Part shown: one piece after another, positions 30,130 to 32,560 of the stretch
Layout: each line of letters begins with the position of its first letter
Numbering within the stretch: the stretch's first letter is position 1
Assembly: GCF_000307165.1 (NCBI RefSeq)
Contig: NC_018704.1
Coordinates: 1,302,001 to 1,366,000 of the forward strand
DNA length: 64,000 nt
Reading direction: 5' to 3'
DNA from: Amphibacillus xylanus NBRC 15112
GTDB lineage: Bacteria; Bacillota; Bacilli; Bacillales; Amphibacillaceae
The notes under the pieces: model-generated
Told to the model about the DNA's origin: nothing
What the model saw: only the letters and a program-made list of their open reading frames with translations
The model's database searches: none
Program-made: the position numbers and the translations under genes

Positions 30130-30141
30130 CTATAAGAACTA

Positions 30142-30179
30142 GTCTAAAATCTTAACTTACTAAGATTTTGGACTTTTTT
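30142..30179 (+). terminator. Terminator after the DUF1801 gene
   Basis: GTCTAAAATCTTA pairs with TAAGATTTTGGAC (one G-U pair), followed by TTTTTT. Confidence 0.85.
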
Positions 30180-30237
30180 ATTATTGACACAATTTCGTCA
30201 TATTTACTAGTTTAAAATATAAATAAGTAAGAAAAAG

Positions 30238-30253
30238 TGTGATATATGTCACT
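30238..30253 (+). promoter_or_regulatory. Crp/Fnr-like operator before trhP1
   Basis: TGTGATATATGTCACT matches the Fnr pattern TGTGA, six bases, TCACA at nine of ten half-site positions. A CATAAT -10 element lies at 30274-30279, which puts the predicted transcription start near 30286 and the centre of the site at about -41. This is the standard position for an activator of the class II type. The regulator itself is not in this window. Confidence 0.5.
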
Positions 30254-30315
30254 GATTTTATATCTGATTGCTTCATAATAATTGTAGTCAATTTATTTTT
30301 AATCAGGACGGAGTT

Positions 30316-30351
30316 AATTTTAGCTAATTATCAATCAGCTAAAATTTTTTT
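30316..30351 (+). terminator. Terminator-like hairpin in the trhP1 leader
   Basis: AATTTTAGCT at 30316-30325 pairs perfectly with AGCTAAAATT at 30337-30346, followed by a T run. It lies between the predicted promoter near 30280 and trhP1, so it may act as an attenuator. Confidence 0.7.
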
Positions 30352-30395
30352 CTGTTTATAATAGAAGTTAGTGATTTTTTAAAGGAGATAAGACA

Positions 30396-31319
30396 ATGAC
30401 GTTATATATACCTGAATTACAAGCATCTGCAAGAAATATTGATGAAGTAAAACGATTAGCTCTTGCTGGTGCTGATGCATTATTAATTGGTCATCAACAA
30501 TTTGCTAACCGTGTACCTGGCGATTTTGAACTGTCTGACATTCGTGAGGCAACCGAATGGCTTCATAACCAAGGTAAGAAAGTATATGTTAGGGTCAATG
30601 CGATTTACCACAATCAACATTTAACCGAATTACCAAGTTATTTAAAAGAGTTAGAAGAAATCAATGTTGATGGCATTATTGCAGGAGATCAATCTATTTA
30701 TCAAATTTTATCTGATATTAATAGTTCTTTACCTCTAACTTGGGATCCAGAAACATTATCAACGAACTATCAAACATTGAATTTCTGGGCTAATAGAGGT
30801 TTAAAACGAGCAACATTATCTAATGAGCTGTCTTTAACTGCTGTGTTTGAGATGAAAGAGAAAGTTAATTTTCCAATTAATATTCAAGTTCACGGTATGA
30901 CTAATATTTTTCATTCTAAGCGAAAGTTAATTAGAAACTACTACAATCAAATCGATCAAGCATATGATTCAACCGTTCAACGTTATATTAAAGAAAATAA
31001 GAAGCCCGAAACTCATTATCCAATATTTGAAGACGTAAATGGCACACACATTATGAGTAATGAGGACTTAGCAATGATTGAGTATCTTGATCAAATTCTT
31101 GATGCGAAGATTGACGGACTGTATATTGAGGGGATCCTTAAGACAATAGATTACAATGAGCAAATTGTTTCATTATACCGAGAAGCAATTGATACTTATT
31201 TAGATGATCCAGCAGCTTATGCGCTTAAAAAAGCAGACTATAAGCAAGCTATTGATGAAATTCAACCAGAGAGTCGTAGACTTAACACCGGATTCTATTT
31301 TAAAGAACAGATTTATTAA
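30396..31319 (+). CDS. trhP1: U32 family protein, tRNA hydroxylation factor TrhP1 (YrrN)
   Basis: 307-residue protein of peptidase family U32. Most members now known act in RNA hydroxylation rather than proteolysis; B. subtilis TrhP1 and TrhP2 are needed for 5-hydroxyuridine at tRNA position 34, with prephenate as the hydroxyl source. The N-terminus (ELQASARNIDEVKRLALAGADALLIG) and DGLYIEGILKTIDYNEQIV fit. It lacks the cysteine-rich block of its partner (the same position reads QVHGMTNIFHSKRKLIRNYY). trhP2 follows after 17 bases. An AAAGGAG site precedes the ATG. Confidence 0.88.
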   Translation: MTLYIPELQASARNIDEVKRLALAGADALLIGHQQFANRVPGDFELSDIREATEWLHNQGKKVYVRVNAIYHNQHLTELPSYLKELEEINVDGIIAGDQSIYQILSDINSSLPLTWDPETLSTNYQTLNFWANRGLKRATLSNELSLTAVFEMKEKVNFPINIQVHGMTNIFHSKRKLIRNYYNQIDQAYDSTVQRYIKENKKPETHYPIFEDVNGTHIMSNEDLAMIEYLDQILDAKIDGLYIEGILKTIDYNEQIVSLYREAIDTYLDDPAAYALKKADYKQAIDEIQPESRRLNTGFYFKEQIY

Positions 31320-31336: not shown

Positions 31337-32560
31337 ATGATAACTAGAAAAAAACCAGAATTACTTGCACCCGCAGGTAATTTAGAAAAACTAAAATTTG
31401 CTATACATTATGGAGCCGATGCTGTTTATATTGGTGGACAACAGTTCGGTTTAAGATCGAATGCGGGTAATTTTACTTTTGATGAAATGCGTGAAGGTGT
31501 AGCATTTGCTAATAAATATGGTGCAAAAGTATATGTTGCTGCTAACATCATTGCACACAACGAAAACTTAGAAGGTTTACATGAATATTTTAAAGAATTA
31601 TATGATATTGGGATAGCAGCTGTTATCGTTGCCGATCCAGCATTAATCCAAGCCTGTCGTGAAGCAGCACCAGATTTAGAAGTGCATATTAGTACACAAG
31701 CATCTGTTGCTAACTGGAAAACAGCAGAATTTTGGAAGAATGAAGGTATTCCACGTGTTGTTCTCGCTAGAGAGGTTTCTGTTGAAGAAATTCGCGAAAT
31801 GAAGGAAAAGGTTGATATTGAAATAGAGGCATTTATTCATGGTGCGATGTGTATTTCATATTCAGGTCGCTGTGTTTTATCAAATCATATGTCTGCTAGA
31901 GATGCAAATAGAGGGGGATGTGCCCAGTCATGTCGTTGGAAGTATGACCTATTTGAGGATGGAATTGATGGTACAGAGCCAATCTCAGAATTAGCTAACG
32001 AACAATACAGCATGAGCTCCCAAGACATGAGTATGGTAGAATATTTACCTGATTTAATTGAGGCAGGTGTAGATTCATTTAAAATCGAGGGTAGAATGAA
32101 GAGTATTCACTATGTCGCAACTGTTGTGAACGTCTATCGAAAAATAATTGATACTTACTTCGAAGATCCTGAGAACTACAAAATTGATCCAGAGTGGATT
32201 GATGAAATTTGGAAAGCAGCGCAACGTTCATTAACGAGTGGCTTTTACTATAATGAACCAACTGAAAAAGACCAGCTTTTCGGTAGACCTGCTAGAATTC
32301 CTAAATACGATTTTGCTGGATTAGTTTTGGATTATGATGAAAATACGAAAATTGCAACAATCCAACAAAGAAATAACTTCGGTGTCGGTGATGAAGTTGA
32401 ATTCTTCGGGCCAAACTTCTATCACTTTAAGCAAACAATCACTGAACTTTGGGATGAGAACGATGAACCAATTGACCGCGCTAAACATGCGATGATGATT
32501 ACAAAAGTACGACTAGACCAACCAGTTGAAAAATATAATATGATGCGTAAAGGCAAATAA
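31337..32560 (+). CDS. trhP2: U32 family protein, tRNA hydroxylation factor TrhP2 (YrrO)
   Basis: 407-residue U32 protein, homologue of E. coli TrhP (YegQ). The start KPELLAPAGNLEKLKFAIHYGADAVYIGG (residues 5-33) is typical. The signature EAFIHGAMCISYSGRCVLSNH is followed by RGGCAQSCRWKY, giving four cysteines that could bind a metal or Fe-S cluster. DSFKIEGRMKS is also conserved. It forms an operon with trhP1. Its C-terminal beta domain (about 325-400) is present, so the protein is full length. A terminator follows. Confidence 0.92.
   Translation: MITRKKPELLAPAGNLEKLKFAIHYGADAVYIGGQQFGLRSNAGNFTFDEMREGVAFANKYGAKVYVAANIIAHNENLEGLHEYFKELYDIGIAAVIVADPALIQACREAAPDLEVHISTQASVANWKTAEFWKNEGIPRVVLAREVSVEEIREMKEKVDIEIEAFIHGAMCISYSGRCVLSNHMSARDANRGGCAQSCRWKYDLFEDGIDGTEPISELANEQYSMSSQDMSMVEYLPDLIEAGVDSFKIEGRMKSIHYVATVVNVYRKIIDTYFEDPENYKIDPEWIDEIWKAAQRSLTSGFYYNEPTEKDQLFGRPARIPKYDFAGLVLDYDENTKIATIQQRNNFGVGDEVEFFGPNFYHFKQTITELWDENDEPIDRAKHAMMITKVRLDQPVEKYNMMRKGK

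Follow-up and report, generated by a model that had tools for sequence, protein, structure and literature searches.

The question raised by this locus is whether the trhP1-trhP2 genes of Amphibacillus xylanus NBRC 15112 are switched on when oxygen runs out, and by which regulator. Both genes are on the plus strand, trhP1 (yrrN-like, U32 family) at 30396-31319 with its start codon at 30396, and trhP2 (yrrO-like, U32 family with a C-terminal domain) at 31337-32560 of the window, by which we mean the whole 64,000-nucleotide stretch analyzed, positions 1,302,001-1,366,000 of a genome made up of a single contig of 2,569,486 bp. The products are tandem U32 proteins, with PF01136 in both and PF16325 in TrhP2 only; the NCBIfam TrhP model matches each of them below its 534-bit cut-off. 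Two redundant routes lead to ho5U34, one through TrhO, which requires O2, and one through TrhP, which is O2 independent, and the possession of both has been proposed to suit life with and without air (PMC6599085). In the open literature, we found no transcriptional link of these two routes to oxygen. The parallel routes invoked in the earlier note do coexist in A. xylanus, whose TrhO, a UPF0176/rhodanese protein, scores 306 bits against NF001133 (cut-off, 170) and carries the motif CTGGIRCE. Across the family, TrhO was present in 156 of the 159 genomes surveyed, compared to 164 of 249 sampled genomes of other families; trhP1-trhP2 was found in 46 of the 159.

Before trhP1, on the plus strand, lies a predicted Fnr-type operator, TGTGATATATGTCACT (30238-30253), identified by its sequence and by its conservation at this position. 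It has the form TGTGA-N6-TCACT, fits the palindrome test TGTGA-N6-TCACA/T, and differs solely in its last base from TGTGAN6TCACA, the Bacillus subtilis Fnr consensus (Reents 2006, as cited in Table 1 of PMC8151001). A -10 box, CATAAT (30274-30279), follows 20 nt past the operator, and a scan of the plus strand before trhP1 for a TTGACA-like -35 box found none. Based on the -10 box alone, transcription is predicted to start at A30286 or G30287, placing the operator center (30245.5) at -40.5 or -41.5. Both the Crp/Fnr-like operator some 41 bases before the predicted start and the CATAAT box, as they had been proposed from the letters of the DNA, thus held up, with a geometry like that of a class II activator site. 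The terminator of an upstream DUF1801 gene (30141-30180, plus strand) separates that gene from the trhP promoter. A candidate second promoter, TATAAT at 30357-30362, was rejected; it has no -35 box and is absent from the sister genome.

Might the motif be no more than a palindrome that arose by chance in AT-rich promoter DNA, serving no regulator? The bare 16-mer pattern occurs at seven distinct places in the A. xylanus genome and is not enriched over a reversed control, which would fit such a reading; being similar to the control, the genome-wide count is uninformative as evidence, and the site gains its significance from its conservation upstream of trhP1. By chance, the exact pattern is found in about 0.027% (2.7e-4) of simulated 200-bp upstream regions of the same dinucleotide content, which argues against the chance reading, as does the conservation of position and spacing over 15 genera while most flanks changed. 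When the -10 box was included in the pattern, there were 20 matches in 11 genomes versus 1 in the reversed control. Eleven of these 20 matches are at trhP1, and for A. xylanus, as for 6 of the 10 relatives included, this is the sole match. The comparative data already contradict the chance reading, to which we give scarcely any credence; the site is genuine, far beyond what chance would yield.

Upstream DNA was compared for all 46 trhP-bearing genomes of the family (the window and 45 others), and 29 of them, the window included, had the exact pattern no more than 200 nt from trhP1. In the 29 aligned promoters, TGTGA and TCAC are invariant and most of the bases between them are weakly conserved; the -10 box follows the operator by 20 to 21 nt in 27 of 29, and the site and spacing have been kept while the flanking sequence has mostly diverged. 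The pattern precedes [CT]ATAAT by 20 nt at all seven loci with a close TrhP1 (L003-L009, from Amphibacillus, Halolactibacillus, and one MAG), and it was found at none of 12 other loci with a different TrhP1 type (Trichococcus and others). A TrhP1 tree, unsure in its details since it was built on the few columns of the first ~130 residues, groups the window's TrhP1 with 26 others as type A (support, 100/100). Every one of these 27 type A genomes, spanning 15 genera, has the site, so that the loss in close relatives that would have spoken against the operator was not seen. The remaining 19 genomes of the family have TrhP1 proteins (type B) that fall together with those of Trichococcus, Granulicatella, and their relatives; on this sequence evidence, type B TrhP1 looks like a separate acquisition. 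Among these 19, the exact site was found in 2 (L054 and L070), with a near match in one more (L055); about 10 Fnr-positive family genomes with a type B TrhP1 have no exact site, a point against control by Fnr. Independent gains of the site were probably few in number.

The type A promoters (for example, L039-L049) share two further elements, AAAGTA ahead of the operator and the leader sequence TAGACTGTATTTTTGAGGTGA past the start; both are kept from genus to genus but degraded in Amphibacillus. In 6 of the 17 type B promoters without an exact Fnr site (L053, L072, L073, L077, L093, and L094), we noted TTGTCANANA, which matches part of the ResD consensus given in PMC8151001, in reverse complement, with a chance of about 1% each. 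These promoters may possibly answer to ResD rather than to Fnr.

The expectation that the site would be conserved before yrrN in related genera was borne out in the 15 genera of the family and failed beyond it; all 40 genomes sampled from the order's other families had trmR directly upstream of trhP1, and none of the 40 had the exact site within 1.5 kb upstream of trhP1. Within the window's family, trmR was upstream of trhP1 in 0 of 45. The A. xylanus trmR (L125), whose product matches YrrM of PDB 5zw3 (E, 8e-54), sits without trhP between mltG-like and greA-like genes, a neighborhood that we take to be the one in which B. subtilis keeps yrrM (gene order also per PMC6599085). Thus, trhP1-trhP2 stand apart from trmR, behind their own promoter. 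Compared to the B. subtilis yrrM-yrrN-yrrO operon (trmR-trhP1-trhP2), the tandem TrhP1-TrhP2 are orthologous and belong to the same mo5U pathway, but in A. xylanus the two genes stand alone, with trmR elsewhere. One can envision that trhP1-trhP2 left a housekeeping trmR operon to form a module run by Fnr in anaerobiosis, TrhO remaining the constant enzyme for aerobic life, and that oxygen control of decoding capacity evolved through more than one regulator, given that the TrhP that other genera in the family seem to have acquired separately sometimes has a ResD-like site; we hold this history tentatively, with a little under even confidence.

Which protein would read the operator? The earlier note made its proposal depend on an Fnr- or Crp-family gene, and the A. 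xylanus genome encodes two PF00325 proteins, L001 and L002. L001 (contig positions 1869609-1870307) is a B. subtilis-type Fnr, with a C-terminal CxxCxxxxC (C222, C225, and C230) and a recognition helix RESVNR; Asp137, in FRDL, is its likely fourth cluster ligand, an equivalence drawn without aligning the B. subtilis protein. The orthologues that we read retain CENCPxxLC, the Asp of FRDL, and RESVNR, and the ligands of the [4Fe-4S] cluster in this type of Fnr have been described (PMC3520743). All site-bearing genomes encode an L001-type Fnr (E < 1e-60), and the site was found in none of the six trhP-bearing family genomes without a good Fnr (Fisher, 0.0013, phylogeny ignored; two of the six are weak cases, G142 being 75% complete and G141 having a fragment only). 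Phylogeny likewise ignored, the presence of trhP follows that of Fnr, which is found in 40 of 46 trhP-bearing and 38 of 113 other family genomes. The single near-complete family genome without TrhO (G112; L056) has trhP and lacks both Fnr and the site, as would be expected if TrhP must then be always on.

The alternative that L002 uses the trhP site derives from its being the only other PF00325 protein of the genome and from the binding of Crp-like motifs by ArcR of Staphylococcus aureus. L002 has no C-terminal cysteines, and its recognition helix, PETVSR, lacks the Arg by which Crp-type proteins read TGTGA. It was also not found in the site-bearing genomes G005, G006, G007, G008, G012, G027, and G035; on this lack of co-occurrence, in at least seven site-bearing genomes, we rejected it as the regulator, and we regard its use of the site as very unlikely.

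A second alternative is that the trhP site is an operator for Rex, which represses at high NAD+/NADH and releases when oxygen is short. Rex sites do resemble the trhP site, the S. aureus consensus being TTGTGAAW4TTCACAA (PMC2883068), and A. xylanus has TGTGAA-N4-TTCAC sites at a butanediol-dehydrogenase-like gene and two SDR genes. Against this, an A at position 6 together with a T at position 11 is seen in 0 of the 29 trhP sites, the outer T and A of Rex sites are not kept (the base after the 16-mer is G in 23 of 29), and the constant 20 to 21 nt to a -10 box without a -35 box fits an activator. Rex was rejected on this disagreement of both inner and outer bases, and we consider it very unlikely to be the trhP regulator.

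Other sites of related form were noted in A. xylanus. The Rex-like sites just mentioned (L023, L024, and L025) lie before their respective genes; TGTGACAGATTTCACA, between pflB-like and adhE-like genes (L022; contig positions 304886-304901), is a candidate Fnr or Rex site; and TGTGATTTCTGTCACT, with TATAAC at 21 nt, is antisense to the start of a recX-like gene (L026; 646682-646697, minus strand).

With Fnr as the preferred regulator, other matches to the site plus -10 pattern in relatives are of interest; these lie before feoB-like and DUF438-like genes in G014, a genome with more sites, and before a mobB-like gene beside fnr in G012, all named by eye, and fit an anaerobic regulon. As for nitrate respiration, narG is present in 6 of 18 genomes, and the 16-mer matches in the narG control search fell mostly inside coding sequence. 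A. xylanus reportedly lacks a respiratory chain, which makes the usual Fnr regulon uninformative there. In the only transcriptome that we found for A. xylanus, pflB and adhE were not induced 30 to 240 min after sudden removal of oxygen, and trhP is not in the gene table (PMC13398963); these data therefore speak neither for nor against control of trhP by Fnr.

The leader contains a second feature to which the earlier note drew attention, a hairpin with a T run (30316-30351, plus strand). Its stems, AATTTTAGCT (30316-30325) and AGCTAAAATT (30337-30346), form 10 perfect, AT-rich pairs around a loop of 11, with the T run at 30345-30351. If this were a real attenuator or terminator, the promoter would mainly yield a short transcript, about 65 nt long, with trhP expression set by readthrough, possibly on top of Fnr. 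Consistent with that, the leader folds better than shuffled sequences (z, -3.1 to -3.8), and the nearest relative (L003/L058) retains the 10-bp stem around another loop. However, the stem has two G-C pairs only and a stability of -7.8 kcal/mol (z, -3.1), half that of the conventional terminator behind the upstream gene (30141-30174; -15.4 kcal/mol); it has the T run but not the stable, G+C-rich stem of an intrinsic terminator, and was not called by the terminator scan. The hairpin is also absent from the third genome of the genus (G003) and from all other genera, where the leader is short; an Rfam search of the leader gave nothing at the gathering threshold and one chance-level match, and no conserved antiterminator was seen in it. 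The perfect stem noted earlier is there, then, as a weak, terminator-like hairpin confined to A. xylanus and its nearest relative. Judged from these comparisons, it is a recent, lineage-specific addition outside the conserved design, and it may trim readthrough, or perhaps protect the RNA or have no effect; we think it unlikely that it sets trhP expression.

Sequence, geometry, conservation, gene content, and the separation from trmR lead us to infer Fnr binding, anaerobic induction, and an effect on tRNA, and we consider it likely that reduced Fnr, acting as a class II activator, turns on trhP1-trhP2 in anaerobiosis, giving ho5U34 when TrhO is without O2. Segment 30238-30279 would then be a class II, activator-dependent promoter. 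In this reading, the B. subtilis-type Fnr, with its [4Fe-4S] cluster intact at low oxygen, would occupy TGTGA-N6-TCACT near -41 and turn trhP1-trhP2 on through a contact with RNA polymerase that makes up for the missing -35 box. TrhP1-TrhP2 would hydroxylate U34 of NYN-decoding tRNAs in a prephenate-dependent reaction, and ho5U, and mo5U via TrmR, would still be made when TrhO cannot work. Site-bearing cells probably switch their tRNA-modification route in this way when oxygen runs out. The suggestion, made from the window alone, that Fnr activates these genes without oxygen gains support from the Fnr gene, the conserved site geometry, and the coexisting TrhO. It came with the remark that no such report was known in Bacillaceae; likewise, our search of the open literature, with subscription papers and RegPrecise outside it, turned up nothing published on control of trhP by Fnr. 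A conserved Fnr-type promoter on the O2-independent route offers a direct and cheap test of the idea that the two routes serve life with and without oxygen.

The proposed switch resembles two known systems. At B. subtilis Fnr promoters, the site is at -41, and the trhP locus shares with that regulon the operator consensus, an Fnr with C-terminal cysteines, and, as predicted from the -10 box, the -41 geometry; it differs in that the A. xylanus target is a tRNA-modification operon rather than nitrate respiration or fermentation. The Fnr of Escherichia coli has N-terminal cysteines and reads TTGAT. In that organism, experiments show that the U32 hydroxylases UbiUV are activated by Fnr and replace O2-dependent enzymes in the absence of air (PMC10470549), a parallel that the earlier note did not bring up. 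The likeness lies in O2-independent U32 hydroxylases under Fnr, a putative activator in our case, beside O2-dependent enzymes (UbiI/H/F there and TrhO here), whereas the substrate is ubiquinone in one case and tRNA in the other. This parallel suggests that O2-independent U32 hydroxylases repeatedly come under Fnr.
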